Source of the DNA: Bacteroides acidifaciens
GTDB taxonomy: Bacteria > Bacteroidota > Bacteroidia > Bacteroidales > Bacteroidaceae
Direction of reading: 5' to 3'
Length of the DNA: 64,000 nucleotides
Assembly (NCBI RefSeq): GCF_903181435.1
Contig: NZ_CAEUHO010000004.1
Location: forward strand, 1,302,001-1,366,000
Shown here piece by piece: positions 30,526-63,509 of this stretch (position 1 is its first letter; each line of letters starts with the position of its first letter). The notes beneath the pieces are model-generated. The model searched no databases. It saw only the letters and a program-made list of their open reading frames with translations, and was not told the DNA's origin. Both the position numbers and the translations under genes were made by a program.

Positions 30526-30695
30526 GAAACTTGAGTTTCTTCAGCGTGAAACTAAAGTTTCTATTGCTTGAAACTAGAGTTTCATCAGTAGGAAACTAAA
30601 GTTTCTGACGCTTGAAACTAATAGTTTCAAAGCAGAAAACGAAGTGTTTCAAGCCTTGAAACACTTTGTTTCACGGCATTGAACACTTTGTTCCA
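30526..30695. repeat. 22-nt-period palindrome array (core GAAACT-N2-AGTTTC)
   Basis: Five palindromes of the form GAAACTNNAGTTTC start at 30526, 30548, 30570, 30592 and 30614, exactly 22 nt apart; the last has one extra central base. The 8-nt spacers differ from one another. A larger near-perfect palindrome follows (GTGTTTCAAG, one base, CTTGAAACAC at 30644-30664), then a decayed copy with CACTTTGTT. Nothing is coded. It lies between two esterase genes of the pectin locus. Confidence 0.9.
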
Positions 30696-30774
30696 ATAAG
30701 GATGAGCAAACTTGGATACGAGAGAAATGTAGCTTCCGGTAGCTTTTGGAAATAAAGAAATAAAGAAGGTTGGG

Positions 30775-30880
30775 AAGCGGTGATAGGTGATAGATTGGGT
30801 GATAGGTTGAAAAACAACCTATCACCGCTTGAAATGCCGATGAATAGGGCGTTTGATGGATGTCGGTGATAGGTGAAAGA
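30775..30880 (+). repeat. Hairpin and scattered GGTGATAGGT copies
   Basis: The word GGTGATAGGT occurs near 30779, 30798 and 30865. The middle copy forms a perfect 12-bp hairpin (30798-30809 with 30815-30826, 5-nt A loop). No T-tract follows. It completes the contents of the 449-nt gap; no -7 box was found before the next gene. Confidence 0.6.
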
Positions 30881-30919
30881 TAAAAATGATTTTTTTATTA
30901 TAGTGTATAGTATAAAGAA

Positions 30920-32659
30920 ATGAAAGAAAATAGAAGTAAATTAGTACTGTTGTTGGCAGTTGCCTTTGTTCTCTGCTCTGCATTTCGCGCGGACAAACCT
31001 GTCGTAACTATCTTTATGATAGGGGATTCGACTATGGCTAACAAGAAGTTGGACGGCGGAAATCCCGAACGTGGCTGGGGAATGGTACTTCCCGGATTTT
31101 TCTCCGAAGACATAAAGATAGACAATCATGCCGCCAACGGACGCAGTTCCAAGAGTTTTATCTCCGAAGGGCGTTGGGCAAAAGTCATCTCCAAAGTGAA
31201 GAAAGGTGATTATGTCTTTCTCCAGTTCGGACATAATGATGAAAAAGCGGATTCTATCCGACACACCGAACCGGGAACTACTTTCGATGACAATCTCCGC
31301 CGTTATGTAAACGAAACCCGCGCGAAAGGTGGCATCCCCGTATTGTTCAATTCCATCGTCCGCCGTAACTTCGTCCAACCGCAAGATGCTTCCATCACTA
31401 AGGATATCCGCCGGACACCGGGGGAAAAAGAGCAACCCAAAGAAGGAACGGTCTTGTTCGATACGCATGGAGCTTATCTGGATTCTCCACGCAATGTAGC
31501 GAAAGAGCTCGGAGTCGTATTTATTGATATGAACAAAATCACTCACGACTTGGTGCAAGAGCTTGGACCGGTAGAATCGAAAAAGCTTTTTATGTTTGTC
31601 GCCCCCAATCAGATTCCCGCTTTCCCGAAAGGTCGTGAAGATAATACTCACTTGAATACCTACGGAGCGCGAACCATCGCAGGCCTGGCTGTTGATGCCA
31701 TCGGCAGGGAAATTCCCGAACTGGCAAAATATATCCGTCATTACGATTATGTGGTAGCCCAAGACGGTAGCGGTGATTTCTTTACCGTGCAGGAAGCAAT
31801 CAATGCCGTCCCCGACTTCCGTAAAAATATCCGTAGCACGATTCTAGTTCGTAAAGGCACTTATAAAGAAAAGATTATCATCCCTGAAAGTAAGATTAAC
31901 ATCTCCTTGATAGGAGAGGATGGCGCAGTATTGACTAATGACGATTTCGCCAATAAGAAAAACGTATTCGGTGAAAATATGGGAACTTCCGGCTCATCCA
32001 GTTGTTATATCTATGCCCCGGACTTCTACGCGGAAAATATCACATTCGAAAACTCATCCGGTCCCGTAGGGCAAGCTGTCGCCTGCTTTGTCTCTGCCGA
32101 CCGTGCATTTTTCAAGAATTGCCGCTTCTTAGGCTTCCAGGATACCCTCTACACTTACGGCAAACAAAGCCGCCAATATTACGAAGACTGCTACATCGAA
32201 GGAACCGTTGATTTTATCTTCGGCTGGTCTACCGCTGTGTTCAATCGCTGCCATATTCACAGTAAGCGTGACGGCTATGTGACCGCCCCTTCTACCGACA
32301 AAGGAAAAAAATACGGTTATGTCTTTTACGACTGCAAGCTCACCGCAGAACCGGAAGCTACAAAAGTATATCTTTCCCGTCCTTGGCGTCCATATGCGCA
32401 AGCTGTATTTATCCGTTGTGAACTGGGAAAACATATTCTTCCCGAAGGATGGAACAACTGGGGTAAAAAGGAAAACGAGAAAACTGCCTTTTATGCCGAA
32501 TATGAGAGCTGTGGCGAGGGAGCCAATCCAAAAGTGCGTGCTGCTTTCTCCCGTCAGTTGAAGAACCTGAAGGGATATGAGATAAAAACAGTCCTGGCAG
32601 GAGGTGATGATTGGAATCCGGTAGAAGATGGAAATAAGTTGTTGGATGTAAAACGTTGA
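30920..32659 (+). CDS. Two-domain pectin acetylesterase (CE12-like) and methylesterase (CE8)
   Basis: A secreted protein of 579 aa with two catalytic modules. The N-terminal module (about 28-270) is an SGNH/GDSL esterase of the CE12 type: IGDSTMAN with the nucleophile Ser, NHAANGRSSKSF, LQFGHND and the Asp-His dyad in DNTHLN. The C-terminal module (about 275-560) is CE8: VAQDGSGDFFTVQEA, GQAVAC, FQDTLYTYG, TVDFIFGWS and LSRPWRPYAQ. It probably removes both acetyl and methyl groups from pectin. A signal peptide lies at the N-terminus (LVLLLAVAFVLCSAF). It is preceded by the repeat-rich gap and followed by the HTCS gene. Confidence 0.92.
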   Translation: MKENRSKLVLLLAVAFVLCSAFRADKPVVTIFMIGDSTMANKKLDGGNPERGWGMVLPGFFSEDIKIDNHAANGRSSKSFISEGRWAKVISKVKKGDYVFLQFGHNDEKADSIRHTEPGTTFDDNLRRYVNETRAKGGIPVLFNSIVRRNFVQPQDASITKDIRRTPGEKEQPKEGTVLFDTHGAYLDSPRNVAKELGVVFIDMNKITHDLVQELGPVESKKLFMFVAPNQIPAFPKGREDNTHLNTYGARTIAGLAVDAIGREIPELAKYIRHYDYVVAQDGSGDFFTVQEAINAVPDFRKNIRSTILVRKGTYKEKIIIPESKINISLIGEDGAVLTNDDFANKKNVFGENMGTSGSSSCYIYAPDFYAENITFENSSGPVGQAVACFVSADRAFFKNCRFLGFQDTLYTYGKQSRQYYEDCYIEGTVDFIFGWSTAVFNRCHIHSKRDGYVTAPSTDKGKKYGYVFYDCKLTAEPEATKVYLSRPWRPYAQAVFIRCELGKHILPEGWNNWGKKENEKTAFYAEYESCGEGANPKVRAAFSRQLKNLKGYEIKTVLAGGDDWNPVEDGNKLLDVKR

Positions 32660-32671
32660 TTGTACCCGAAA

Positions 32672-32704
32672 GGATATTATTTTCTATTAGAGATATTAAT
32701 ATCC
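32672..32704 (+). terminator. Possible terminator hairpin after the CE12-CE8 gene
   Basis: GGATATTA pairs with TAATATCC across a 17-nt loop, 13 nt past the stop codon. It is A/T-rich and without a clean T-tract, so the call is weak. Confidence 0.35.
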
Positions 32705-32815
32705 AAGGGTTGAGTTTTTCCACCATTATTAGCTATTATTCTTTTTGAATGTTTTAGTCTCGTTTTCTCTCATGGCTTGGATTTTCTGTTTTAAGGTCGT
32801 ATCTTTTGTTTTGGT

Positions 32816-32848
32816 ATCCACTGGATTTTAATATGAAATTCGGTGGAT
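32816..32848 (+). promoter_or_regulatory. Palindrome upstream of the HTCS gene
   Basis: ATCCAC-T-GGATTT pairs with AAATTC-G-GTGGAT around a 7-nt centre. It lies about 95 nt upstream of the HTCS -7 box and could be a regulator site. The rest of the 331-nt gap shows nothing else. Confidence 0.35.
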
Positions 32849-32942
32849 GCTTATAGGTAAAAGAACGATGTCTCCATTTAAAAGAATCTCCTGATTCTGT
32901 TAAATAGCTGGTAAGGATTGTGTTAAACTACTGTTATTTTCT

Positions 32943-32950
32943 TATATTTG
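32943..32950 (+). promoter_or_regulatory. HTCS promoter -7 box
   Basis: TATATTTG matches TAnnTTTG, with TTG about 22 nt upstream. The start ATG at 32991 is preceded by an unusually good AAGGA ribosome-binding site at 32979-32983. Confidence 0.65.
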
Positions 32951-32990
32951 TTCCTTTGTTATAGCACCATTAATTATTAAGGACATAATA

Positions 32991-35900
32991 ATGATAAAAA
33001 AAATCTTATATCTAGCTATTTCGAGTTTACTAGTCTGGACAGCGGTACAGGCGCAGACAAACAGCTTTTTCACCCATTATTCTACAGAAGACGGATTATC
33101 ACAAAATACGGTGATGAACATCTTGCAGGACCATAAAGATAATCTCTGGTTTGCTACCTGGGACGGAATCAACCGTTTCAACGGATACACATTTAAGACG
33201 TACAAGGCACGTCAGGGAAATTATATCAGCCTGACAAACAACCGGGTGGACCGCCTGTATGAAGATTGTTATGGTTTTATTTGGCTATTAACCTATGATA
33301 ACCGTGTCCATCGTTTTGACCCGAAGACCGAGACTTTCGAACAGGTTCCGGCTGCCGATGAAGAGGGGAGTACCTATTATGTGGGAGCTATCAAAGTATT
33401 GTCGAATGGTATCGTTTGGTTATTGACCGAGAGTGACGGTGCTATCCGTGTCAGCACGAATCCCGAAAAAGGGCATCAACTGGATATTGATATATACTCC
33501 CGGAAGTCGGGCTTGTTTCCCGCCACTCACGTATATCAGGTCTATGAGGATAAGGCAGGCAATGACTGGCTGCTGACCGATAACGGACTGGGCATGATAC
33601 CCTCCGGTGAGAAAACACCGGTTTCTTATTTTGTCGATACCAAAGGAAAGTCCGGCGGGATGAACCAGGCTTTTTATGCGGTTCAGGAGCGTGACGAGGA
33701 TATTTGTTTTGCTTCGGACAAAGGAAGAGTCTGGCGTTATCAGAAAAGTAACGGTGAGTTTCATTTGCTCGAGATTCCTACCAAAGCCAATATTACCGCT
33801 ATCTATGCCGAACAGGAAAAGGCAGTCATGGCGACAGATACAGACGGGTTCTTCACCTATGACATGAAAACCGGAGAGAGTGTGCACTACTCCCATGTGA
33901 CTTGCAAAGACTTACCCGATAAACCGATTCTTTCCATGTATGTGGACCGTGCTTCGGAGATTTGGTTCGAACAGGAAGAACTCGGTGTGGTGGTTCATTT
34001 CAACCTTGCCACCGGAGTGGTGAAGCGGGAACAGATGAAAGTGGAATATAGCAATGCCGACCGTTCCCGTCCTGCTTTTCACATCCACGAAGATGTGAAC
34101 GGATATTTGTGGGTGCATCCGTATGGCGGCGGTTTCTCTTATTTCGACCGCGAACGGAACTGCCTCGTTCCTTTTTATGATGATTTGGACAGTCATAACT
34201 GGCGTTTCTCTAATAAGATTCATATTGCTTTCTCGGACAAACAGGGTAATCTGTGGCTTTGTACCCATTCGAAGGGATTGGAAAAGGTCACTTTCCGCAA
34301 TGTCCCTTTCTCCATGCTGACCCCGGTTCCTCACGAATATGAATCGTTAAGCAATGAGACGCGGGCTATCTGTGAAGATAAGCTGGGTAATCTGTGGGTA
34401 GGGCTGAAAGATGGAATCGTGCGTATTTATGATTCCAACCGTCAGTATAAAGGTTATTTGACGGAGAGCGGAACGATTGCTCTTTCCGGTGCTCCGATGC
34501 AGGGGACTGCTTACTTTATTATGCAGGATTCAAACGGCGTAATGTGGATTGCTACGAAAGGTAACGGACTGGTTTCCGCACGTCAGACTTCACAGACCGG
34601 TATGTCGTATCGGCTGACACGCTACCAGCACAATAAGGATGATATGTATAGCCTGAGCGACAATAATGTATATTGTGTGTACGAAGACCATCACGGACGC
34701 ATCTGGGCGGCTACCTTTGGCGGCGGTATCAATTACATTACTCAAAATCAGGAAGGGGAGACGCTCTTCATCAATCACCGCAATAATCTGAAAGGGTATC
34801 CCATTGACTTGTGCTATCGAACCCGCTTTATCACTTCCGATAACAACGGGCGTATATGGGTGGGTACGACAACAGGGGCTATCGCGTTCGACGGGAATTT
34901 CAAGAAGCCGGAAGATATACAGTTTCATCATTTCTCGCGTGTACCTAATGATACGAACAGCTTGAGCAACAACGATGTGCACTGGATTATCCCGACTAAA
35001 AAGAAAGAACTTTACCTGGCTACTTTCGGCGGCGGACTGAATAAACTGTTGTCTATCGACAAAGACGGTCACGGAGAGTTTAAGTCTTACTCGGTGCTCG
35101 ACGGGCTTTCTTCGGATGTGTTGCTCTCCATTCGCGAAGACCATAAGCAGAATCTTTGGATTAGCACGGAGAACGGCATCTGTAAGTTCATCCCTTCCGA
35201 AGAGCGTTTTGAAAATTACGACGAACGGAGTATCAGCTTCCGGGTTCGTTTCAGTGAGGCGGCTTCGGTATTGACTTCCAAAGGGAATGTGATGTTCGGC
35301 ACCAGTAACGGGGTATTTATGTTCAATCCGGACTCGATACGGAAAAGCAGTTATGTGCCGCCGATTGTTTTCGGCAAATTGATGGTGAATAATGAGGACG
35401 TCACTCCGGGAAAAGCATCTATACTGAAAGTAGATTTGGATGAAACGGAAAAACTGGTGCTTTCGCATGACGAGAATATTTTCTCTCTTCAGTATGCGGC
35501 ACTTGATTACACGAATCCGCAGAATATACAATATGCCTATATTCTCGATGGATTTGAGAAGCAGTGGACGTTTGCGGATAAACAGCGGAGTGTGACTTAT
35601 ACCAATCTACCGAAGGGCGAGTATGTATTCCGTGTCCGGTCTACCAATAGCGACGGGGCGTGGGTGGAGAACGAGCGTACGCTGGATATTGTTATTCTTC
35701 CCTCTTTCTGGGAGACTCCGGTGGCGTATGTGCTCTATGTATTGTTTATACTGATTATTATTCTTGTGGCTGTTTATATCCTGTTCACAATTTACCGGCT
35801 TAAACATGAAGTATCCATCGAACAGCAGATTTCGGATATAAAGCTGCGTTTCTTTACCAATATTTCCCATGAGCTCCGTACACCGCTTACGCTGATAGCG

Positions 35901-37493
35901 GGTCCCGTGGAGCAAGTGTTGAAGAATGATAAGTTGCCGGAGGATGCCCGTGAGCAGTTGGTGGTGGTAGAACGGAATACCAACCGTATGCTTCGTCTTG
36001 TCAACCAGATTCTGGACTTCCGTAAGATTCAGAACAAGAAGATGAAGATGCAGGTGCAGCGTGTGGATGTCGTTCCGTTTGTACGCAAGGTGATGGATAA
36101 CTTCGAAGCCGTTGCCGAGGAACACCGGATTGATTTCCTGCTCGAGACGGAGAAGCAGCATTTGTATCTTTGGGTAGATGTGGATAAGTTGGAAAAGATT
36201 GTGTTTAACCTGCTTTCCAATGCTTTCAAGTACACACCGAACGGGAAAATGATTACAATTTTTATCCGCGAAGATGAGAATACTGTTTCTATCGGTGTGC
36301 AGGACCAGGGTATCGGTATTGCCGAGAATAAGAAGAAATCGCTGTTTGTCCGTTTTGAGAATCTGGTGGACAAGAATCTTTTCAACCAGGCGAGTACGGG
36401 TATCGGGCTTTCATTGGTGAAGGAGCTTGTGGAGATGCACAAGGCAACTATTTCTGTCGATAGCCATTTGGGAGAAGGAAGTTGCTTCAAGGTTGATTTC
36501 CTGAAAGGAAAAGGGCATTATGATGAGGAAGTCGAATTTATCCTTGATGATGCGGAAGCTCCCGTAAGAATGGGGCAGGTGGTGGATATTGCCAATGCGT
36601 CGCTCCAGTCTGAAACTTTGGCGGCTAATTCCAAAGAGATGATGTTGCTGGTTGAAGATAATCAGGAATTGCGTGAGTTCCTGCGTAGTATATTTACTCC
36701 GATGTACAGGGTGGTGGAAGCTGCCGATGGTATGGAAGGTTGGAGCAAGGCGTTGAAATATCTGCCGGATATTATTATCAGTGACGTGATGATGCCCGAA
36801 AAAGACGGTATTGAGATGACCCGGGAACTGCGTGCGGATATGACGACCAGCCATATACCTATTATCCTGCTTACCGCCAAGACTACTATCGAAAGTAAAT
36901 TGGAAGGGCTGGAGTACGGTGCGGATGATTATATAACGAAGCCTTTCAGCGCTACGTATCTGCAAGCCCGTGTGGAAAACCTGCTGATGCAGCGCAAGAA
37001 GCTGCAGAGTTTCTACCGCGATAGCCTGATGCATATCAACATGTCTGCTGTCCCCGAAAATTTGCCTGTACCGGCAGAGGTTGTATCAGAGGAAGCAAAC
37101 GAGGTTGAATCGGGGCAGGGAGCGCAGCCTCAACCTCAACCTACTGTTCCCGATATGTCTCCCAACGACCGTAAGTTTATGGATAAACTGGTGGAACTGA
37201 TGGAGCAGAATATGGATAATGGCGACTTGGTAGTAGATGATTTGGTACGCGAACTGGCTGTCAGCCGTTCGGTATTCTTTAAGAAACTGAAAACGCTTAC
37301 CGGGCTGGCGCCTATCGAGTTTATCAAGGAAATCCGTATTAAGCGTGCCACCCAACTGATTGAAACCGGAGAGTTTAATATGACTCAAATTTCGTATATG
37401 GTCGGTATTAATGACCCGCGTTATTTCAGCAAATGCTTCAAGGCGCAGGTGGGGATGACGCCGACAGAGTATAAGGAGAAGGTAGGCAGGTAG
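32991..37493 (+). CDS. Hybrid two-component system sensor/regulator (HTCS)
   Basis: A 1500-aa one-protein signalling system of the inner membrane. Order: signal peptide; a periplasmic sensor of repeated beta-propeller motifs (many LWFATWDGINRF-like strands, residues about 25-790); a Y_Y_Y domain; a transmembrane helix near 905-930; HisKA with the phospho-acceptor His in ISHELRTPLTL (H960); an HATPase with NLLSNAFKYTPNG and STGIGLSLV; a receiver with VEDNQELREF, the phospho-acceptor Asp in IISDVMMPEKDG (D1265) and the lysine in YITKPF; and a C-terminal AraC-type helix-turn-helix (about 1395-1500). By family it binds a pectin oligosaccharide in the periplasm and activates neighbouring genes. 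It is convergent with the PL1 genes. Confidence 0.97.
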   Translation: MIKKILYLAISSLLVWTAVQAQTNSFFTHYSTEDGLSQNTVMNILQDHKDNLWFATWDGINRFNGYTFKTYKARQGNYISLTNNRVDRLYEDCYGFIWLLTYDNRVHRFDPKTETFEQVPAADEEGSTYYVGAIKVLSNGIVWLLTESDGAIRVSTNPEKGHQLDIDIYSRKSGLFPATHVYQVYEDKAGNDWLLTDNGLGMIPSGEKTPVSYFVDTKGKSGGMNQAFYAVQERDEDICFASDKGRVWRYQKSNGEFHLLEIPTKANITAIYAEQEKAVMATDTDGFFTYDMKTGESVHYSHVTCKDLPDKPILSMYVDRASEIWFEQEELGVVVHFNLATGVVKREQMKVEYSNADRSRPAFHIHEDVNGYLWVHPYGGGFSYFDRERNCLVPFYDDLDSHNWRFSNKIHIAFSDKQGNLWLCTHSKGLEKVTFRNVPFSMLTPVPHEYESLSNETRAICEDKLGNLWVGLKDGIVRIYDSNRQYKGYLTESGTIALSGAPMQGTAYFIMQDSNGVMWIATKGNGLVSARQTSQTGMSYRLTRYQHNKDDMYSLSDNNVYCVYEDHHGRIWAATFGGGINYITQNQEGETLFINHRNNLKGYPIDLCYRTRFITSDNNGRIWVGTTTGAIAFDGNFKKPEDIQFHHFSRVPNDTNSLSNNDVHWIIPTKKKELYLATFGGGLNKLLSIDKDGHGEFKSYSVLDGLSSDVLLSIREDHKQNLWISTENGICKFIPSEERFENYDERSISFRVRFSEAASVLTSKGNVMFGTSNGVFMFNPDSIRKSSYVPPIVFGKLMVNNEDVTPGKASILKVDLDETEKLVLSHDENIFSLQYAALDYTNPQNIQYAYILDGFEKQWTFADKQRSVTYTNLPKGEYVFRVRSTNSDGAWVENERTLDIVILPSFWETPVAYVLYVLFILIIILVAVYILFTIYRLKHEVSIEQQISDIKLRFFTNISHELRTPLTLIAGPVEQVLKNDKLPEDAREQLVVVERNTNRMLRLVNQILDFRKIQNKKMKMQVQRVDVVPFVRKVMDNFEAVAEEHRIDFLLETEKQHLYLWVDVDKLEKIVFNLLSNAFKYTPNGKMITIFIREDENTVSIGVQDQGIGIAENKKKSLFVRFENLVDKNLFNQASTGIGLSLVKELVEMHKATISVDSHLGEGSCFKVDFLKGKGHYDEEVEFILDDAEAPVRMGQVVDIANASLQSETLAANSKEMMLLVEDNQELREFLRSIFTPMYRVVEAADGMEGWSKALKYLPDIIISDVMMPEKDGIEMTRELRADMTTSHIPIILLTAKTTIESKLEGLEYGADDYITKPFSATYLQARVENLLMQRKKLQSFYRDSLMHINMSAVPENLPVPAEVVSEEANEVESGQGAQPQPQPTVPDMSPNDRKFMDKLVELMEQNMDNGDLVVDDLVRELAVSRSVFFKKLKTLTGLAPIEFIKEIRIKRATQLIETGEFNMTQISYMVGINDPRYFSKCFKAQVGMTPTEYKEKVGR

Positions 37494-37519
37494 GAAGTAA
37501 TAATTGTGACATAATAAAA

Positions 37520-37555
37520 AAAGAGGAATTAACTTTGTTGAAAGTCTTCCTCTTT
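37520..37555. terminator. Bidirectional terminator between HTCS and PL1 genes
   Basis: AAAGAGGAA pairs with TTCCTCTTT across an 18-nt loop in the 76-nt convergent gap. A-tracts and T-tracts flank both sides. Confidence 0.75.
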
Positions 37556-37569
37556 AATAATTATCTATT

Positions 37570-39078
37570 CTATTTTTTAGGGAACAGGTGATTGACCAGG
37601 CTGTTCATATATACTTCAAGATTCGTATATTCCGAGCTTAAAGTATATTTGGCTCCGTCTGAAGGGTCATTAGGGTTCAGATTGTGCTTCTTTTCCCATT
37701 CGTCAGGAATACCGTCTCCGTCTGTGTCTGGCAAAACCGTCCCGGATTTGTATTCGGGCCATCCGCCTACATCGGACGGCTGGTCAATCATTCCGTTCGT
37801 ACTTCCGTGAGAACCTTCGTAGGTATAAGTTCCTTTTTCGGTTTCTTCTACGATACGTTGGTCTACGGCATCACGGCGATAGGAAGCGCCTGCAAATTGG
37901 AGAACGTCCTTATAGGCTTTCTTTGCCGGTTGTAGGGAAGTATGTTCCGCTATATCAAATGCTTTCTTAGACAACATCTCTTTCTCGGTTGCGAAGTCTT
38001 TTTTGATAACTAAGCCGTAGGTATTGTCCATATTCACTTTATAAAGAGCTTCTTTCTGTTTGTCTGTCAACTTAGAACAAGTAGGGTCCATATAGTTTCC
38101 TTTGAAGTGGAATACTCCGTGAACGCCTGCGGCATTCTTGTTTTTGCCGTCATCGGCATAAGCTGTGAATAGGCGTTTGAAAGAACCTTTCGTTGCGCTG
38201 AAAGGGCCGGGCTTGTAGTAGTTATTGATGAAGTTGTAAGAACCGCCTTCGCCGGCATAAGCGCCGTCGCTACCGTAATTGTAAATCACGTTATTGAATA
38301 GCTCTACCTTTTCATCTTCCGGTCTGCCTGTATAACGGCTTCCGCAAAGGCGGGGAGTGCGGTTGGTGTGATGGGCGAGCAGATTGTGGTGGAAAGTGGC
38401 AGGTTGTCCGCCCCAAATGCCGCCATAGCCGTGTGCTCCTTTCTCATGGATAGAGTTGGCAAGGCTTTCGCTGATAATGCACCATTGAAGGGTAAAGTTG
38501 CGGTTGTCGTAGAAAGTGGCACATTCATCCGTACACCAGCTCATGGAGCAATGGTCGATGATTATGTTTTGGTGAGCTTTCGTGCCGTTTATGGCATCAT
38601 CACCTTTCTGTTTGATGTCGACTCCCATACGCGAGCGGATGAAGCGGACAATCACGTTGTCCGCCTGGATAGAGAATGTATAGTTCTTCAGACAGATGCC
38701 ATCTCCGGGAGCAGTTTGTCCGGCAATGGTGACATCTCCGTTATTGACCCTTAGCGGTTTTTGAAGTTCAATGATTCCGCTAATGGCAAAGACAATGGTA
38801 CGGGGGCCTTTCTTACCGATAGCCCAGCGGAAGGTTCCTTCGGAGCCGTCGTCAGCCAATGAGGTGATTGTGTAGACTGCACCGCCGGCGCCGCCTGTTG
38901 TGTACTTTCCGGCACCGTCGGCACCGGGGAAAGCTACGACTTTGCTACGGTCGGGAGCAGGATATTCATTCAATCTTTTTTCATCTGAAATAGCTGCTTG
39001 CATGGCGTGCCCCAACAAAGGAAAAGCTAGTACAAAGCTACAGAACGCGATTATATTCTTTTTCATTCTTATTTTCAT
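37570..39078 (-). CDS. Pectate lyase-like protein, PL1 family (copy 1)
   Basis: A secreted beta-helix lyase of 502 aa that would cut polygalacturonate by beta-elimination. The N-terminal lyase core shows [44 protein letters not shown] and [12 protein letters not shown], with the likely catalytic arginine. The C-terminus carries a calcium-binding [12 protein letters not shown] motif and a YTNLEVYMNSLV tail, as in its two neighbours. It has a Sec signal without a clear lipobox; M1 or M5 could be the start. It is the last gene of the minus-strand unit, 21 nt after copy 2, and ends at a bidirectional terminator. Confidence 0.88.
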   Translation of the reverse strand: MKIRMKKNIIAFCSFVLAFPLLGHAMQAAISDEKRLNEYPAPDRSKVVAFPGADGAGKYTTGGAGGAVYTITSLADDGSEGTFRWAIGKKGPRTIVFAISGIIELQKPLRVNNGDVTIAGQTAPGDGICLKNYTFSIQADNVIVRFIRSRMGVDIKQKGDDAINGTKAHQNIIIDHCSMSWCTDECATFYDNRNFTLQWCIISESLANSIHEKGAHGYGGIWGGQPATFHHNLLAHHTNRTPRLCGSRYTGRPEDEKVELFNNVIYNYGSDGAYAGEGGSYNFINNYYKPGPFSATKGSFKRLFTAYADDGKNKNAAGVHGVFHFKGNYMDPTCSKLTDKQKEALYKVNMDNTYGLVIKKDFATEKEMLSKKAFDIAEHTSLQPAKKAYKDVLQFAGASYRRDAVDQRIVEETEKGTYTYEGSHGSTNGMIDQPSDVGGWPEYKSGTVLPDTDGDGIPDEWEKKHNLNPNDPSDGAKYTLSSEYTNLEVYMNSLVNHLFPKK

Positions 39079-39099
39079 TTGGGTTCGAATATACTAAAA

Positions 39100-40764: not shown

Positions 40765-40795
40765 AATCTTTTGAAGTGTTTGGGGATATAAAATC

Positions 40796-42370: not shown

Positions 42371-42394
42371 ACAAATATTATCGTTTTAAAAAAC

Positions 42395-42447: not shown

Positions 42448-42466
42448 TTATAAAATCTTATTGGTT

Positions 42467-44110: not shown

Positions 44111-44131
44111 AATATCTGTTGCTTTTTAGAG

Positions 44132-51638: not shown

Positions 51639-51740
51639 CGAGCCATGTATTTGACTTACTCAAGTCTCCTATATCATTTCATTGAGTGTAGTACTTGTTG
51701 CAGTCAAGTCTCCTACTTGTTACAGCTAAATCTCCTACCA
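51639..51740. repeat. 22-nt-period repeat array (core AAGTCTCCTA)
   Basis: CAAGTCTCCTA occurs at 51661 and 51705, and a one-base variant in the same register at 51727. Degenerate copies occupy the intervening and preceding 22-nt positions (51683, 51639). Each unit contains an inverted GACTT/AAGTC pair (clear at 51653-51666). It is more decayed than the other arrays. Confidence 0.65.
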
Positions 51741-51878
51741 AATATAAAAAGTAAAAAAACGCCTTCAGCTTTCAGTTCTTCAAAAAAGTCCCTTTTCATC
51801 GGTGTTTTTGGCTGAAGTCACTCCTGAATGCAAAAGTGTATAATTTAACCACGTGCCACCCACTTTTACCTGGGTGAT

Positions 51879-51957
51879 GGATCTATATACCCCGCGTGGT
51901 GGGCATATAGATCCAGTACGGTGAGTATATATACCTACCACGGTGAATATATAGCTC
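51879..51957. repeat. 22-nt-period repeat array (core GGTGNNTATATA)
   Basis: The word GGTG(G/A)(G/A)(C/T)ATATA occurs at 51898, 51920 and 51942, exactly 22 nt apart. A perfect 10-bp inverted repeat (GGATCTATAT at 51879-51888 with ATATAGATCC at 51905-51914) overlaps the first unit. It is non-coding and about 140 nt from the previous array. Confidence 0.7.
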
Positions 51958-51998
51958 TATTGTCAAGTCTGAAAAAGCTGAATGCGCTGAAAGCACTT

Positions 51999-52038: not shown

Positions 52039-52039
52039 C

Positions 52040-52560: not shown

Positions 52561-52562
52561 CT

Positions 52563-52570
52563 TATGTTTG
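52563..52570 (+). promoter_or_regulatory. -7 box for the radical SAM gene
   Basis: TATGTTTG matches TAnnTTTG. The predicted transcription start near 52577 leaves only about 9 nt before the first ATG at 52586, so ATG 52595 or 52601 could be the real start. Confidence 0.6.
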
Positions 52571-52585
52571 TAGATTAAATAATGA

Positions 52586-53572: not shown

Positions 53573-53631
53573 TAAATATCTATTTGGGGAATATCGGGTG
53601 GTGAGAGAGACTTTTTAATGTAACTTAAAGA

Positions 53632-54828: not shown

Positions 54829-54879
54829 AACAGTGAATGAGATAATATATTTATTACTAACCTATAAAACAATCGACTT

Positions 54880-55692: not shown

Positions 55693-55712
55693 GACGAGGA
55701 TAAACTCTATAA

Positions 55713-55754
55713 AAAATGGGCTGCATCAGTGTTTAATTGATTGCAGCCCATTTT
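55713..55754. terminator. Bidirectional terminator between nagB and the YciO/YrdC gene
   Basis: A perfect 13-bp stem (AAAATGGGCTGCA with TGCAGCCCATTTT) around a 16-nt loop between convergent genes, with A- and T-tracts within the stem ends. Confidence 0.85.
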
Positions 55755-55785
55755 GTTATAATTGAATTTCCGGCAGGAGAAGAGA

Positions 55786-56400: not shown

Positions 56401-56424
56401 AACTTCTTCTCCTTCCCATCTTCT

Positions 56425-58950
56425 TTATTTAAGTTTCTTCTTTAGGAAATCCAGCGCCTTTTCAGCAGCTTTTTCCGTTACTTTCTGCTTGATTGAGTCT
56501 TTGTTGGCAGTAGCGGCAGAATCCAGACCCAGTTTCTGACCGAGTTTGCTGATAGCCTCATCGGCTACGGCTTCAACAGCCTGGCTTGCCATACTCTTGG
56601 TATCGACACTGACTTTGGGAGAAGTAAACGAACCGCCGATTTTTAGGTCGAGAGTCATTAGTTTGGAGATATTTCCCGCGGATGCAGGCAACTTGATTTT
56701 TCCTGTATAATCAATGGTTTGGTCAAGTCCCGTGCTGCCGGAAAGATTCAGATTGTAATCTCCCATCTTAATATCGAACGGTTTCGTTTCTACACGTCCG
56801 TCTTTGATGATGAAATCAAGTGTCATATCTTTCACCTTCATATCTTTCAGGCTTGGTTGCTTCACAGCATCGGCAATCTGGTCGATTGCTTTCACTCCGC
56901 TTAAACTGAGGTCGCGGGTAGAAAGGCTGCCATCGCCTTGCATCGTATCCAATACAGGGCTCATGGCTGCATCCAAATCTGTCAATACATTGATGCTGCC
57001 GGAGAAATTTCCTTTCAGGTTTTCGAAGATAGGAGCCATCTTCTGTACCATATCCAGTTCTTTATAAGCCTGAGCGAAGACGATATTCGACAGTTTGAAT
57101 CCGGCTTTCAGTTCCGGTTTCTTCACGTTCGCGGTCGAATAATATCCGTTCATGACCACGTTTCCGCCCATAGTACTCATGGATAAATTCTTCATGTCTA
57201 CCTTACCGTCTTTTACGATAAGTTTGCCGTTCATATTGTTGAAAGACATCTTGTCGAATAATACCTGTTTCAGATTGGCATCCATCTGGAAGTCAATGTT
57301 GCGCGGCACTTCAACAATTCCGGTGGAAGTAGGTACAGAATCGGTAGCCGCTGCGTCCGGTGTAGCAGTTTCATCTGCGGAAGCAGTCATGAAATCATTC
57401 AGGTTGAAATAGTTGGAACGGATATTCAGCGTACCTTTTAAGGTCGTTCCTTTCAGTACGTAACCGATATAATTTTCAAACCGGCTGTCGGCAGTGATGT
57501 CGTTCTTGCCTATATTGACAGTCGTTTCGCTCAACTGGAGATATTTCGGAGTGAAAGTGAAAAGTGACTTCTTAATCTCTACATCCGGCATATCTTTCAT
57601 TTTCAGCTTCATACCCGTCAGTCCGATGGTGCCGGCAGCCTGCATACGTTCATACTGTTCCTGTTCGATGTAGGAGAGACGTCCCGACATTTGCATATCG
57701 GCGTCGATTGTCCCGTTCAATTCCATGTCTCCAAGCGGATATACCTGCTTAATCATGCCCAAGTTGAGAATACCTTTTGCTTCGGCTTTAAAGTCCGGGT
57801 CGCTGATTGGAGTTTTCACGTTGGCAGTCAGACTGAACGGATTGTTAGCCAGACGGAAGCTGAACGGATTAATGTCAACGGTAGTCAGGTCAATATTTCC
57901 ACCCGGATTCTGAACGTTAGCGCTAATATTGATTTGGTCTACGCCTGCCGGTAAAGCCGGATAGCGGAACATGGCATTTTTGACTTGCATATCAATATTG
58001 AATGAAGGAACGGTGTCTCCTTGCAGGATACCTTTGGCTGTTGCGGTAAGGGTGGCGGTTCCGTCTGTTTTCAGGCTGGAGAACTCAGTCGCGTAGATAG
58101 CAGGAATCAACGAAAGAATTTCCTTGAAACCGATATCATTCGTATTAAGTTTCAAATCCATGTCGATAGCCGGGTCTTTCAAGGCTACCCAGCCGTCGAT
58201 GCCGGCTTGGATGGCGTTAAGACGAATCGTATTATCCTTTAATGTGTATTTGTTGTTGGCGAGGTCGGCATCTACATCCATCTTTGCGGAGATATTGGCA
58301 TTTGCCAGGAAAGGAATCCCGTTCATCTTGTAAGTCAGGGATTTAGTTTCCGCTTCCAGTTTCAGGGTAGTATGTTCACTTCCCAAGTCTCCTGCGCAGA
58401 TAGCGTTGAAGTCGCGGATATCAGCATACATTTTCCCTTGTTGGTCATCATAGACCAGATTCATGTTTTTGATGACGAAACGTTGTAGCTTCACTTTGAA
58501 AGGAGAAGATTCTTCTTCGTCAACGGCTGGTGTTTCGTCGGTTGCGGTCGTGTCCGGTTTCATGATGTCCCAGTTGACTTGACCGTCCGGCAATACAATG
58601 GCGTGCAGCTTGGTGTCTTCAATGAAGATTTTAGAAATATCATAGCCACTATCTCCGAAAAGTGAGAATAGATTAATGGCGGCAGTAACTTCTCCGGCTT
58701 GTACAAGGGTATCGTTTGCGAATTCTCCCGTACCTTTCAGCCAGAAATCTTCGAGAGTGACAGAAGCCTGCGGGAAGTTACGGAACAGGCTAATGTTGAG
58801 TTTCTTAAAGTCAAATTGAGCGTTGAGCATCTTGTTGCCTTCTGTCTTTACGATATCGGCTATCTTACCCTGGAAGGCGAAAGGAAGAAGGAGCATCAGA
58901 ATGATAATTACTCCTACGGTGATAGCTGCGATTTTCAAACCTTTTTTCAT
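56425..58950 (-). CDS. AsmA-family envelope protein
   Basis: A large protein of 841 aa with a single N-terminal transmembrane anchor (about residues 7-26, IAAITVGVIIILMLLLPFAF) and a long periplasmic beta-rich body. Repeated amphipathic strands, and a C-terminal segment with LNLSGSTGLDQTIDYTGKI, fit the AsmA/AsmA_2 family. Such proteins are now linked to bridge-like lipid transport between the membranes; that role is inferred. The acidic low-complexity stretch near residue 140 (ATDETPAVDEEESS) is a linker. A -7 box lies 38-45 nt upstream. Confidence 0.88.
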   Translation of the reverse strand: MKKGLKIAAITVGVIIILMLLLPFAFQGKIADIVKTEGNKMLNAQFDFKKLNISLFRNFPQASVTLEDFWLKGTGEFANDTLVQAGEVTAAINLFSLFGDSGYDISKIFIEDTKLHAIVLPDGQVNWDIMKPDTTATDETPAVDEEESSPFKVKLQRFVIKNMNLVYDDQQGKMYADIRDFNAICAGDLGSEHTTLKLEAETKSLTYKMNGIPFLANANISAKMDVDADLANNKYTLKDNTIRLNAIQAGIDGWVALKDPAIDMDLKLNTNDIGFKEILSLIPAIYATEFSSLKTDGTATLTATAKGILQGDTVPSFNIDMQVKNAMFRYPALPAGVDQINISANVQNPGGNIDLTTVDINPFSFRLANNPFSLTANVKTPISDPDFKAEAKGILNLGMIKQVYPLGDMELNGTIDADMQMSGRLSYIEQEQYERMQAAGTIGLTGMKLKMKDMPDVEIKKSLFTFTPKYLQLSETTVNIGKNDITADSRFENYIGYVLKGTTLKGTLNIRSNYFNLNDFMTASADETATPDAAATDSVPTSTGIVEVPRNIDFQMDANLKQVLFDKMSFNNMNGKLIVKDGKVDMKNLSMSTMGGNVVMNGYYSTANVKKPELKAGFKLSNIVFAQAYKELDMVQKMAPIFENLKGNFSGSINVLTDLDAAMSPVLDTMQGDGSLSTRDLSLSGVKAIDQIADAVKQPSLKDMKVKDMTLDFIIKDGRVETKPFDIKMGDYNLNLSGSTGLDQTIDYTGKIKLPASAGNISKLMTLDLKIGGSFTSPKVSVDTKSMASQAVEAVADEAISKLGQKLGLDSAATANKDSIKQKVTEKAAEKALDFLKKKLK

Positions 58951-58987
58951 TTGCTTCTATTTTAAGAGTCTGATTATATGCAAGGAA

Positions 58988-58995
58988 CAAAATTA
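58988..58995 (-). promoter_or_regulatory. -7 box for the AsmA-family gene
   Basis: TAATTTTG on the minus strand matches TAnnTTTG, about 38 nt upstream of the ATG at 58950. Confidence 0.6.
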
Positions 58996-59197
58996 ATAAA
59001 ACTTTTTGATAATAAGGGGTAAAAGAGTTTTTTTTAGGGATTCTTATTTTTAAATTAGCAGAATCCAAAGTACGGGATTGTGTTAGGGACGGTTGAGGAT
59101 AGAGAGTAGGGGATGATAACTTAATCTGTAAATATATTTGCGTGTAGCTCTCCAAAGTAGACAATGGCTTTCCAAGGCGTTGTAAGTGGGGGATTCG

Positions 59198-59296
59198 TTC
59201 CTCGGTGAGCAACGACCTTTTCCTCGGTGGGGAACGGGGCTTTCCTCGGTGAGGAACGATGTGTTGGTCGGTGAGGAAGAAAACGGTCGGTTTCCG
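59198..59296. repeat. 22-nt-period palindrome array (core TTCCTC-GGT-GAGGAA)
   Basis: Copies of TTCCTCGGTGAGGAA, with at most a few changes, begin at 59198, 59220, 59242 and 59264, exactly 22 nt apart, and a decayed copy follows at 59286. Each core is a 6-bp inverted repeat around GGT. The array ends about 25 nt from the stop codon of the minus-strand helicase gene. The rest of the 369-nt gap has two TCCAA-containing words near 59151 and 59171 and the AsmA promoter; nothing else was seen. Confidence 0.9.
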
Positions 59297-59319
59297 TCTT
59301 TTTCATTTATATAGATTTA

Positions 59320-61317
59320 TTACTTTCTCTTTTTCTTCAGTTCCTCTGCGATTCTCCATTGTAACGCAGCTTCCACTTCTTTTCCTGCTTTCAGCAAAGC
59401 GTCACCGAATAGTTCATGTGCACCGGCATGCTCCGGTTTCAGGCTTGTCGCTTTATCCAGGTCGGCAATGGCTCCTTCCGTATCTTCTGTTTTTAGTCGA
59501 AGCTTTCCCCGGTTATAAACAGCTTTGAAATTTGCCGGATGAAGATTTACAGCCGTATTGAAACAGTTCTCCGCATCAAAATATTCTTTGTTGTTAAAGA
59601 GCGTGATTCCTTTTCGTATCCAGGCATCCACGTAGTTCGGGTCGAGACTGAGCGCCTTGTCATAGTTGGCAAGGGCGGCACGTGCGTCGTGTGCCTGAGT
59701 GATACACTCATTTCCCATTAACAGATACTCATGTGCGTATTGGCGCAGACGTTCCTGCTGTTCCTTCATCTGTTCCTTGAGCTTTTTATTCTGTTCTTTC
59801 AAGGTGTTGATGACACCGAGTTTCCGGCGGATGAAGCGGCGCGGGACAGGTTTTTCTATATCATAGCGGGAATGAATAGCTCGGAAAAATTGTTCCAGAC
59901 ACTCTTCCATATCTCCTTTGTCGAAAGCACGTGCGGCTGCGGCATATTGTACATCTGCCTGTGCCTGTTTCAATGCCTTGTCAATGGCTTGTCGGTTATT
60001 GAAACGTCCTGCAAAGTTCACAATCTCGGGACGGACGAAAACATCTGCCCTGTTAATCGGCTTTTTGAGCTGGATACCATCCAGTGAAGTGCAACGGCTA
60101 AGTGCGACATACGCTTGTCCACCAGCAAATACTCCGCCTGTAAAGTCAATGACTACCCGGCTGAAAGTCAATCCCTGGCTCTTGTGAACAGTAATAGCCC
60201 AAGCCAACCGGATAGGATATTGCGTGAAACTACCCAGTACTTCTTCCTCAATCTCTTTCGTCTTTTCGTTGTAACGATAGCGGATATTGCGCCATGAATC
60301 CCGTTTCACGTCACATTCTTTTCCGTCATCAGTGATAACGTATATCGTTTCCTCTTCCTCATCAATGCCGGCAATGACACCAATCGTACCATTCACCCAA
60401 CGACGGTCAAAGTCGTTCTTGATAAAGATAATCTGTGCACCGGGTTTTAATACAAGCTCTTGTGAGGTAGGTAGACTACTTTCGGGAAAGTCTCCTTCGA
60501 TTACTCCTTCAAAAGTAATCGGTTCTCCCGGAAGTTCGGCCAGTTTCTTCTCATTGATTGAATCTACCGTATCCCTTCGGGTAGCAAGCGTGATATACAT
60601 ATCCGCTTCCGATTCTTCAATCTGACTTCCATATCGGGTATTCAACAGTTGCAAATCCGCAGCTCCGGCAGTATTAGTACGAATGTGGTCAAGGACACCG
60701 ACAAAAACAGGGTCAGTCTGCCGATAAACCTTTTGTAGTTCGATAGACACCAAATCTATCTGACCGAATACCCGTGCAGAGAAAAAGTAGGGAGTAGGGT
60801 AGAATCGGTTTAATATTTCCCGCTCATCGTTCTTCACGACAGGTTCCAACTGGAAGACATCGCCTACCAATAACAACTGTTTTCCACCAAAAGGCTCACG
60901 TAAGTTATGGGAATATACGCGCAGGATACGGTCGATGGCATCAATAATATCCGCCCGCACCATTGAAATCTCGTCAATAATCACCAGTTCTATCTGTTCC
61001 AGTAACTTCCGGTGTGGTTTGGTATATTTGAAAAACTCGTGGATGCGTCCCCGTTGCAGGCTGAGGTTCGGGTCGTCCGGCAATAGCGGATAAAAGGGAA
61101 GTTTAAAGAAACTATGCATCGTGCTTCCCCCGGCATTGATTGCGGCAATACCCGTCGGAGCAAGTACGACATGTTTCTTTTTCGTATTCTCGCAGACGTA
61201 ACGCAGGAATGTAGATTTCCCTGTCCCCGCCTTTCCGGTCAGAAAGACCGACTGGCGTGTATATTGAATCAAGTTCAGGGCATCCTGAAACTCAGCGTTG
61301 TTAGTGTCTACGCTCAT
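59320..61317 (-). CDS. Pif1-like helicase fused to tetratricopeptide repeats
   Basis: A 665-aa cytoplasmic protein. The N-terminal two-thirds is an AAA/SF1B helicase of Pif1/RecD type: Walker A LTGKAGTGKSTFL near residue 30, Walker B IIDEISMVRAD near 113, LLVGDVFQLEP, and AWAITVHKSQGLTF with YVALSRCTSL near 385-415. A coiled-coil of about 25 residues (QNKKLKEQMKEQQERLR) leads into C-terminal TPRs (about 530-660: YDKALSLDPNYVDAW, FNTAVNLHPANFKAVY, DKATSLKPEHAGA). The fusion suggests a helicase tethered to a protein partner. It lies 24 nt downstream of the HAD gene. Confidence 0.92.
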   Translation of the reverse strand: MSVDTNNAEFQDALNLIQYTRQSVFLTGKAGTGKSTFLRYVCENTKKKHVVLAPTGIAAINAGGSTMHSFFKLPFYPLLPDDPNLSLQRGRIHEFFKYTKPHRKLLEQIELVIIDEISMVRADIIDAIDRILRVYSHNLREPFGGKQLLLVGDVFQLEPVVKNDEREILNRFYPTPYFFSARVFGQIDLVSIELQKVYRQTDPVFVGVLDHIRTNTAGAADLQLLNTRYGSQIEESEADMYITLATRRDTVDSINEKKLAELPGEPITFEGVIEGDFPESSLPTSQELVLKPGAQIIFIKNDFDRRWVNGTIGVIAGIDEEEETIYVITDDGKECDVKRDSWRNIRYRYNEKTKEIEEEVLGSFTQYPIRLAWAITVHKSQGLTFSRVVIDFTGGVFAGGQAYVALSRCTSLDGIQLKKPINRADVFVRPEIVNFAGRFNNRQAIDKALKQAQADVQYAAAARAFDKGDMEECLEQFFRAIHSRYDIEKPVPRRFIRRKLGVINTLKEQNKKLKEQMKEQQERLRQYAHEYLLMGNECITQAHDARAALANYDKALSLDPNYVDAWIRKGITLFNNKEYFDAENCFNTAVNLHPANFKAVYNRGKLRLKTEDTEGAIADLDKATSLKPEHAGAHELFGDALLKAGKEVEAALQWRIAEELKKKRK

Positions 61318-61341
61318 TCTTGTAAGTATAGTAAATCCTTT

Positions 61342-62130
61342 TTATTCAATGATTCCGAAATGTTTCATCGCTTTGCTGATTCCGTCCTCGTCAATGGGAG
61401 CCGTCACGTAATCGGCGGCAGCTTTTACATCATCCTTTGCCTGTCCCATAGCTACTCCGATAGCGGCATGGCGAAGCATACTGATGTCGTTTCCACCATC
61501 TCCGAATGACATCGTATCTTCCAACTTAATATCAAAGTAACGGATGATTTCATCAATCCCCTTTTGCTTTGTATCTCCTTTCGCGGTTACGTCGGCAAAA
61601 GATGGATACCAGCGACCTATCTCACATGTCGGGATAGACGGGCGGATTTCTTTTTCTTCTTCCTCTGTGATAAAAGGTGTCATTTGTATAATCTCTTTGC
61701 TGGTCGCTTCTTCAAAAGAAACAGTCGGGATAACATTCACATGCAGGAAATCATAGAATGTCTTTTTCACTATCTCGTCAGGCTGGCAAACGGATATGTT
61801 ATGTTCCTCTACAAAGATACAAGGCACTCCTTTCTTTTCGCAGAAAGCTGCCATTGCTTTTACTTCCTCTTGGGGGATGGCACTTTTATAAATAACTTGC
61901 TCACCGACAAAACAATAAGCCCCGTTCATGGTTATGTATCCATCTATGAGATTCCGGTCTTGTAGTTCGGAAAGGTTGTTGATAATAGCTTTCGGGCGTC
62001 CGGTAGCGATAAATATTTTGTGCCCTTTTGCATGGGCGGCTTCCAATGCCTTGATGGTAGAAGTCGGGATGCGGTGAGTTTCAAAACTGACCAGCGTTCC
62101 GTCTATATCAAAAAATAATGCTTTCGTCAT
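61342..62130 (-). CDS. Cof-type HAD-IIB phosphatase
   Basis: A cytoplasmic sugar-phosphate or nucleotide phosphatase of 262 aa. HAD motif I is ALFFDIDGTLVSF at the N-terminus with the nucleophile Asp; motif II lies around IFIATGRP, and motif IV is MSFGDGGNDISML near residue 208. The cap is of the IIB type. The actual substrate is unknown. Transcription starts from a -7 box about 25 nt upstream that abuts the promoter of the divergent aminotransferase gene. Confidence 0.93.
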   Translation of the reverse strand: MTKALFFDIDGTLVSFETHRIPTSTIKALEAAHAKGHKIFIATGRPKAIINNLSELQDRNLIDGYITMNGAYCFVGEQVIYKSAIPQEEVKAMAAFCEKKGVPCIFVEEHNISVCQPDEIVKKTFYDFLHVNVIPTVSFEEATSKEIIQMTPFITEEEEKEIRPSIPTCEIGRWYPSFADVTAKGDTKQKGIDEIIRYFDIKLEDTMSFGDGGNDISMLRHAAIGVAMGQAKDDVKAAADYVTAPIDEDGISKAMKHFGIIE

Positions 62131-62152
62131 AGGTTCCTTTTTGAATTGAATA

Positions 62153-62160
62153 CAAAAGTA
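62153..62160 (-). promoter_or_regulatory. -7 box for the HAD-helicase unit
   Basis: TACTTTTG on the minus strand, perfect TAnnTTTG, one base away from the opposite box at 62162-62169. Confidence 0.7.
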
Positions 62161-62161
62161 C

Positions 62162-62169
62162 TATTTTTG
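62162..62169 (+). promoter_or_regulatory. -7 box for the aminotransferase gene
   Basis: TATTTTTG on the plus strand, perfect TAnnTTTG, about 30 nt before the ATG. The two divergent boxes are back to back, so RNA polymerase cannot occupy both at once. Confidence 0.65.
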
Positions 62170-62198
62170 TCTCACATAACATAATAACATCATGCAGT

Positions 62199-63371
62199 AT
62201 GAAATATAATTTTGATGAAATAATAGACCGTAACGGTACAGACTCCGTTAAATGGGACGGAGTGGAAGGGCGTTGGGGACGCAAGGACTTGATTCCGATG
62301 TGGGTAGCTGATATGGATTTCCGTACAGCCCCTTTTGTGATAGACGCTTTGAAAAAACGCCTGGAGCATGAAGTGCTCGGATATACTTTTGCCTGCAAAG
62401 AATGGTCGGAATCCATAATCAACTGGTTACAGGCACGCCACGGGTGGACGGTAAGTGAGGAGATGCTGACATTCACTCCCGGCATTGTCCGTGGATTGGC
62501 TTTTGCTATTCACTGCTTTACGCAGAAAGGGGATAAAGTCATGGTGATGCCGCCTGTTTATCATCCTTTCTTTTTGGTAACTCAGAAGAATGAACGCGAA
62601 GTTGTATTTAGCCCGTTAGTGCTGAAAGACGGACAATATTATATTGATTTTGACCGTTTTCGCCAAGATATTCAGGGCTGCAAACTGCTTATTTTAAGTA
62701 ACCCTCATAATCCGGGCGGACGTGTATGGACAAAAGAGGAGCTGGCTCAAATAGCCGATATTTGTCATGAAAGCGGTACATTAATCATCTCTGACGAGAT
62801 TCATGCCGACTTGACTTTGCCGCCATACAAGCATCCTACGTTCGCTCTTATCTCGGAAAAAGCGCGGATGAATTCACTCATCTTTATGTCTCCGAGTAAA
62901 GCGTTCAATATGCCGGGACTGGCAAGCTCTTATGTAATTATAGAAAATGAGGAGCTTCGTCACCGTTTCCAAACATATATGGAAGCAAGTGAGTTCAGCG
63001 AAGGGCATCTGTTTGCTTACTTGAGTGTAGCAGCTGCTTACAGTCATGGTACTGAATGGCTTGAACAAGTACTTGCTTATATCAAGGAAAATGTGGACTT
63101 CACCGAAAACTATCTGAAAGAGCATATTCCTGCCATCAAGATGATTCGTCCGCAAGCTTCCTACCTTATCTTTTTGGATTGCCGTGAATTAGGACTAAAT
63201 CAGGAAGAACTGAACCGCCTTTTCATAGAAGATGCTCATTTGGCATTGAACGATGGAGCAACATTTGGCAAGGAAGGCGAAGGCTTCATGCGGTTGAATA
63301 TTGCTTGTCCGCGTACTACATTGGAACGTGCGTTGAAGCAGTTGGAGCAGGCAGTAATAAGCTTAAAGTAA
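62199..63371 (+). CDS. PatB/MalY-type PLP aminotransferase (probable cystathionine beta-lyase)
   Basis: A fold-type I PLP enzyme of 390 aa, cytoplasmic. The family signatures are DLIPMWVADMDFRTAP near residue 30, LSNPHNPGGRVW near 168, SDEIHADL, and MSPSKAFNMPGLASS with the PLP-binding lysine near 234. PatB/MalY proteins are often C-S beta-lyases acting on cystathionine; ordinary aminotransferase activity remains possible. It is monocistronic and followed by a palindrome array and a terminator. Confidence 0.92.
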   Translation: MKYNFDEIIDRNGTDSVKWDGVEGRWGRKDLIPMWVADMDFRTAPFVIDALKKRLEHEVLGYTFACKEWSESIINWLQARHGWTVSEEMLTFTPGIVRGLAFAIHCFTQKGDKVMVMPPVYHPFFLVTQKNEREVVFSPLVLKDGQYYIDFDRFRQDIQGCKLLILSNPHNPGGRVWTKEELAQIADICHESGTLIISDEIHADLTLPPYKHPTFALISEKARMNSLIFMSPSKAFNMPGLASSYVIIENEELRHRFQTYMEASEFSEGHLFAYLSVAAAYSHGTEWLEQVLAYIKENVDFTENYLKEHIPAIKMIRPQASYLIFLDCRELGLNQEELNRLFIEDAHLALNDGATFGKEGEGFMRLNIACPRTTLERALKQLEQAVISLK

Positions 63372-63403
63372 CCTCTTTGAAATGGGATTATACACTAGAA
63401 TTA

Positions 63404-63509
63404 TTCTCACCGAAATGAGAAATAATTCTCATCAATATGAGAACTTTTTCTCATCGCAGTGAGAATTATTTCTCATCACGATGAGAATATTTTCTCATAG
63501 GCATGGAAA
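63404..63509. repeat. 22-nt-period palindrome array (core TTCTCAT-N4-ATGAGAA)
   Basis: Five units of the form TTCTCAT NNNN ATGAGAA begin at 63404, 63426, 63448, 63470 and 63492, exactly 22 nt apart; the last is decayed. Spacers between units are only 4 nt, so the array can equally be read as half-sites alternating every 11 nt. It begins about 32 nt after the aminotransferase stop codon. Confidence 0.92.

Follow-up and report, generated by a model that had tools for sequence, protein, structure and literature searches.

Introduction

The 64,000-nucleotide (nt) stretch of the Bacteroides acidifaciens genome considered here (contig NZ_CAEUHO010000004.1, positions 1,302,001 to 1,366,000; hereafter the window) raises the question of why several tandem arrays lying between its genes are built on one pitch of 22 nt when their sequences differ. 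The observation is real and wider than first stated. We propose, with a probability of roughly 55%, that these are iteron-like DNA-binding arrays, putative sites for the replication or mobility of a Bacteroides family that is probably mobile and codes for a predicted primase-helicase (BT4734/VapE), and that those in the window are gene-less copies. The latter is likely because similar arrays often adjoin predicted primase-helicase genes, in some cases between long inverted repeats.

Prevalence and palindromic structure of the 22-nt arrays

Sliding autocorrelation of the window (periods 12-50, cut-off at least 0.66 over 44 nt) recovered five regions of period 22, all situated between likely genes as delimited by mechanical gene calls, and at most one region at every other period except the multiple 44, which had three. 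Tandem Repeats Finder (TRF) was concordant at 30513-30640, 30645-30696, 59198-59259 and 63397-63498. Of the five arrays listed in the original prediction four are solid, while that at 51639 is only a weak two-copy repeat below the cut-off. The inverted-repeat cores, claimed for three arrays, are a stronger feature than was supposed: all five window regions are palindromic beyond their column-permuted versions (p 0.003-0.010).

The nearest genome compared, denoted G001, was scanned for arrays over 1.6 Mb of its 6.8 Mb. Here period-22 regions number 43 between genes and 0 in coding sequence, the next intergenic periods being 44 (18 regions), 66 (6) and 21 (5). The cut-off of 0.66 yields 50 arrays in this 1.6 Mb, which extrapolates to about 200 in the whole genome. 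A scan of 65 related loci with their flanks (1.24 Mb, cut-off 0.70 over 44 nt) gave 32 regions at period 22, 11 at 21, 10 at 14, 9 at 44 and 7 at 42, with some of the period-21 and period-14 counts being 7-mer repeats; block-shuffled sequence of the same loci gave 0 regions at all six periods tried. Of the 50 G001 arrays, 41 were palindromic at p<0.05, as were 18 of 30 at the other loci; among arrays with a period other than 22 the figure was 12 of 53. The autocorrelation scan of intergenic sequence that had been proposed as a check finds the palindromic 22-nt pitch recurring.

The array cores group into dispersed families, the largest seen being GTTTC-loop-GAAAC-spacer. Its strict two-hairpin pattern occurs in 52 copies in G001 (reversed-pattern control 0); of 148 genomes from the order, just 2 contain it. 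It was also found in 4 of 11 additional genomes, with 49 copies in B. cellulosilyticus and 30 in B. bouchesdurhonensis. The arm triples of this family have period 22 in 85 of 107 cases, with loop and spacer lengths of 7 and 5 (62 times), 8 and 4 (22 times) or one other combination. As exemplified by GTTTC-N7-GAAAC-N5, the two lengths trade off at a constant sum, both major classes totalling 22, and the pitch is held while its parts vary. The fixed pitch first noticed in the window is borne out genome-wide. By eye, the family reuses a limited number of loops, in either orientation. The initial impression of a different core in every array holds in that many cores exist, but the region 30510-30692 belongs to the dispersed GTTTC/GAAAC family, and the 59198 array, which has 10 more similar places in G001, has a unit, GTTCC-TCGGTGA-GGAAC, that resembles by eye the GTTTC-TCGGTGT-GAAAC of that family.

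Pitches of 21 and 23 nt form minor classes upstream of some VapE genes. The 23-nt pitch is seen at loci L307, L311, L315, L321 and L224, with a core like ACACCCGGGTGT, and the 21-nt pitch at G001 4479356 and L290. At locus L239, which belongs to a different family within the order, the PF08800 gene is preceded by three copies of a 40-nt repeat (0.86) containing TTTCGACTGTACTCGAC.

Association with BT4734/VapE genes

An array lies in or near the module of 10 of the 14 VapE genes of G001 (seven or eight kinds by eye, three being of the GTTTC type). In 9 of the 14 it is at most 1336 nt upstream of the gene, and two more have period-21 and period-23 repeats there. A first set of 30 PF08800 loci from 60 Bacteroides genomes, reduced to 29 by removal of the G001 locus, was examined at an array cut-off of 0.64. 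A period-22 array lies upstream of VapE in 19 of these and a period-23 array in 1, with none at other periods; on the gene side of VapE no arrays were found at the 29 loci. The best period was 22 in 24 of the 29. Counted by cluster, 10 of 17 have an array, versus 68 of 1123 control genes of G001.

A second set comprised 40 further PF08800 loci, picked non-randomly from the listed matches in 13 genomes with long contigs, other listed matches being omitted. Period-22 arrays occur in 13 of the 40 and other periods in 0 to 2, and 22 is the best period in 18; by cluster, 6 of 23 have a period-22 array. At 27 loci elsewhere, 25 of them from other genera, arrays were found in 0. The association of arrays with VapE is real, though not universal. 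Queries with VapE, HU-HIG and DUF6078 proteins, the last two being putative partners in such modules, found no homologue in the window.

Inverted-repeat elements and probable gene-less copies

Comparison of the flanks of the G001 arrays uncovered common segments and inverted repeats. The modules at 92259, 184624, 1984039 and 6765927 are enclosed by inverted repeats of 110-138 nt with 72-91% identity, the 1123 control genes being a control for arrays and not for inverted repeats around genes. Inverted repeats of 40 nt or more enclose 10 of the 50 G001 arrays, at 8 separate sites, and none of 150 control gaps, and a flank resembling a VapE-element repeat accompanies 13 of the 45 non-VapE G001 arrays (3 of 150 control gaps). 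The ends of one gene-less 0.5-kb family are 77-80% similar to those of G001:91907-95046; this element codes for BT4734/VapE and DUF6078 and has the same type of array as the family. Imperfect 12-nt direct repeats, candidates for target-site duplications, are visible by eye at the ends of four copies of one 0.5-kb family. Among 50 non-VapE arrays, namely the 45 of G001 and the 5 of the window, 24 fit the profile of a VapE-linked array at an uncorrected p<0.05.

In the window, the region 30510-30696 and the flank 30778-30880 match the array and the repeat of the element G001:1983667-1988091, a single such arm being present in the window; the G001 element additionally carries an HTH/IrrE-like (helix-turn-helix) gene and a small gene. 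Over 107 nt the flank matches G001:1987984-1988086 at 80%; with the opposite arm, at 1983674-1983776, the match is 79% over 105 nt. The flank is likely to represent the right end of a gene-less copy of a VapE element. The 30510 array also resembles other VapE-linked arrays, and the adjoining 30624 array has the VapE-linked array V383 as its top match.

Several further features of these elements were seen. The terminal repeats of different G001 element families and the window segment 30778-30880 seem by eye to have a common box like ATTCATCGG, and in each terminal-repeat family a particular 8-10 nt motif seems to recur, facing either way. Two faecal records labelled 'Bacteriophage sp.' (L001, MT838283.1; L002, MT838931.1) bear arrays like that at 30510, and among their genes are ones for an AAA-ATPase/PDDEXK protein and for an integrase-core protein. 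Genes predicted to be of the AAA-ATPase/PDDEXK family flank G001 arrays in 3 of 11 cases.

Features of the window

The features are collected in Table 1. The left flank of the 51884 array matches, at 78% in each case, segments in both arms of the G001 element at 728331 (60 and 64 nt) and a flank of 604837 (83 nt); a search for an inverted repeat pair within the window gap holding this array found none. The 59189 array gave a borderline match to VapE-linked arrays in one comparison (p=0.059) and no match in another (p=0.41). Apart from the arrays, window positions 23568-23777 match the Bacteroides small RNA family BTnc231 (133 bits).

Table 1. Repeat arrays and associated segments of the window, with autocorrelation at period 22 and permutation test of palindromy
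Position	Feature	Autocorrelation or similarity	Palindromy (p)
30510-30610	22-nt array, GTTTC/GAAAC family, loop 8 / spacer 4 type	0.73	0.007
30624-30692	22-nt array, GTTTC/GAAAC family, GAAACACTTTGTTTC type, adjoining the 30510 array	0.68	0.007
30778-30880	Segment resembling terminal inverted repeat of VapE element	Similar to arms of G001 element	
51692-51738	Weak two-copy 22-nt repeat (the 51639 array of the original prediction)	Under cut-off; TRF 2.1 copies, 84% matches	
51746-51822	Left flank of 51884 array, resembling inverted-repeat arms of array-bearing element at G001:728331		
51884-51959	22-nt array, core TATATA..CCNNCACGGTG	0.68	0.003
59189-59289	22-nt array, unit GTTCC-TCGGTGA-GGAAC + 5 nt	0.75	0.010
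63396-63519	22-nt array, TTCTCAT-4-ATGAGAA-4	0.75	0.003

Gain, loss and length change between relatives

One window protein matches B. congonensis at 99% and B. xylanisolvens at 98%. The comparison of orthologous gaps, another of the proposed checks, was carried out at two gaps, at both of which some species have an array while others lack one. Downstream of the gene at 59320-61317, period 22 reaches at least 0.60 in the gap of 4 of 65 loci, and most of the remaining loci have a short array-free gap; the 59189 array was seen only in the nearest species, most other species lacking an array there, and Bacteroides sp. GM023 has a different array within an insert bearing inverted repeats. The gap after the gene at 62199-63371 has an array in 3 of 31 loci, every core being different from that of the window. 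Length differences also occur: the G001 version of the 63396 array is exactly 44 nt shorter than that of the window, and the 30510 array differs between window and G001 by 22 nt, plus 43 nt at the edge. The original view of the arrays as separate, sequence-unrelated objects is not supported, given that many fall into families, that like arrays accompany a predicted primase-helicase gene, and that their presence varies by species at these two gaps.

Three genomes each carry a different array-bearing insert in one and the same gap (G001:6171630-6172215, G165:C1:209259-209542 and G201:C8:98987-101376; loci L193, L272, L273 and L281), the G201 insert additionally holding a gene that appears by eye to be transposase-like. 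The region G001:2834490-2835400, orthologous to window 51.3-52.6 kb, has an extra array (CCTCTGTTTCACTAAAATAGAGG) absent from the window, and the missing piece is seemingly bordered by CCCACGTGCC repeats (by eye).

Evaluation of the proposal and its alternatives

Two helical turns remain the natural reading of a 22-nt pitch, and same-face protein binding, one of the two possibilities originally raised, is favoured. On this view each palindromic 22-bp unit would be bound, always on the same face of the helix, by the initiator or else by its partner (HU-HIG or DUF6078), and the bound array might then open the origin of the element or assemble a mobilisation complex. Each element lineage would have its own unit, and the sequence would therefore differ while the pitch is kept. 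In gene-less derivatives the array would be retained through the action of the protein in trans.

Several observations weigh against this proposal. The second set of loci is weaker than the first, with a period-22 array absent from 27 of 40. Gaps of 250-1000 nt away from VapE in G001 carry arrays in 26 of 132 cases, and long gaps thus explain part of the rate at VapE genes. The gene-family enrichment in G001 (3 of 6, p 0.008) would alone fail correction, and VapE and array sequences lack fine co-divergence. No cutting or joining enzyme was recognised in the modules examined, the AlphaFold model is poor (mean predicted local distance difference test score, pLDDT, 57.1), and module 184624 has inverted repeats but no array reaching the cut-off (0.59 at period 22). 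A match to VapE-linked arrays at p<0.05 is lacking for 26 of the 50 non-VapE arrays, among them the window arrays at 51884, 59189 and 63396 when compared with the sampled VapE-linked arrays. Inverted repeats sought in the gaps of the 59189 and 63396 arrays were not found, and the empty-site comparison gave no clean empty site.

An alternative that we consider unlikely is that the arrays are repressor sites of HU-HIG (HU plus a winged helix) in the divergent gap between the HU-HIG and VapE genes, the dispersed ones being relics or recruited regulatory sites. Many VapE-linked arrays do occupy this gap, and HU-HIG has a predicted DNA-binding domain. However, GTTTC-type modules showed no HU match next to the array in searches with a single HU query, divergent gaps have the lowest array density in G001 (2.35 per 10 kb, against 3.86 in co-directional and 7.06 in convergent gaps), and the roughly 0.5-kb inserts that combine an array with inverted repeats hold no gene to regulate.

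Self-propagating minisatellites, functionless arrays arising from duplication of DNA by replication or repair in steps of two helical turns, would account for the pitch common to different cores and for the whole-unit changes of 22 and 44 nt among relatives. Such a process is an improbable source of arrays that are palindromic in 41 of 50 cases, that keep their arms while the spacers vary, with a single arm sequence in dozens of units per species in three species, and that are placed beside one gene family.

The highest density being in convergent gaps, and units being able by eye to pair as hairpins, a hairpin chain within the 3' untranslated part of an RNA, serving to stabilise or terminate the transcript, might be envisaged, as the original prediction had done for hairpin chains in general. 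This is very improbable: although the numbers are small, the loop TCGGTGT occurs 4 times in one direction and 5 in the other in arrays between co-directional genes, and G-T (7) and A-C (6) stem mismatches are about equal; no Rfam family reached its gathering score on the arrays, and the VapE-linked arrays are upstream of genes. Chance or assembly artefact is of negligible probability, because shuffling, proposed as a refuting check, gave 0 regions versus 32 real ones at period 22, and the same arrays recur in separate assemblies.

Returning to the proposal of iteron-like arrays, a tentative and rather doubtful extension is that they belong to an unrecognised superfamily of satellite-like elements in Bacteroides chromosomes, combining long inverted repeats, an HU-HIG or DUF6078 partner, a primase-helicase with a winged-helix tail and a 22-bp iteron array. 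Such elements might have left as many as a couple of hundred orphan origin arrays in each genome; every one of these would be adapted to its own initiator, yet almost all would keep to two helical turns. The orphans would then be parasites of parasites, amplified in trans.

If the proposal is true, intergenic DNA of a class so far lacking annotation in dominant gut bacteria would become readable as traces of a mobile-element family, and some species-variable Bacteroides gaps would reflect inserts and not regulation. The arrays would also offer a natural experiment in how an initiator's site shifts in sequence at constant pitch, and a testable function, that of element initiator, would be assigned to the BT4734/VapE proteins, which are known here only as domain families.

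Comparison with known systems

Repetitive extragenic palindromes and bacterial interspersed mosaic elements (REP/BIME) are, like the present arrays, short intergenic palindromes dispersed within one genome; to our knowledge, they have no fixed 22-nt tandem pitch. Clustered regularly interspaced short palindromic repeats (CRISPR) likewise alternate a constant part with a variable part of fixed length, with identical repeats and unique spacers of about 30 nt. The arrays differ in having palindromic arms, a 22-nt unit and spacers that mostly measure 4-8 nt, with a trade-off between repeat length and spacer length, and were rejected as CRISPR.

The view that the arrays belong to no named class was nearly right, the closest named entities being the iterons of plasmids and Staphylococcus aureus pathogenicity islands (SaPIs) and the 23-nt BrickBuilt miniature inverted-repeat transposable element (MITE) of Porphyromonas gingivalis. 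BrickBuilt is described as an intergenic multi-copy minisatellite with a part-conserved, part-variable unit within an inverted-repeat element, and P. gingivalis elements with near-identical ends bear unrelated internal repeats (PMC4596501). Both the intergenic, part-conserved and part-variable repeats and, for some arrays, the location inside inverted-repeat elements are similar here. BrickBuilt is a single sequence family of 23-nt units with IS5-like ends GAGACC..GGTCTC (PMC4596501), whereas the arrays have a 22-nt pitch with many cores, and the ends of nine elements differ by eye from these when set against table 2 of that paper; the arrays were thus not assigned to this MITE. The portion of that article drawn on here mentions 22-nt tandem repeats for strain W83, places not given, and mentions no VapE link.

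Iterons are 17 to 22 bp long, with 22 in R6K and pPS10, and a shift by half a helical turn abolishes cooperativity (PMC4980987); SaPI Rep helicases bind iterons adjoining their own gene (PMC7581432). Unlike these, the present arrays are chromosomal, number many per genome and lie mostly distant from VapE. Shared with plasmid and SaPI-type origins are the fixed-pitch repeats, which at some VapE loci (19 of 29 and 13 of 40) lie next to the predicted primase-helicase gene, and tandem direct repeats at integral helical turns, by which iterons are recognised, are what the arrays contain, at 22 nt and in the minor classes at 21 and 23 nt.

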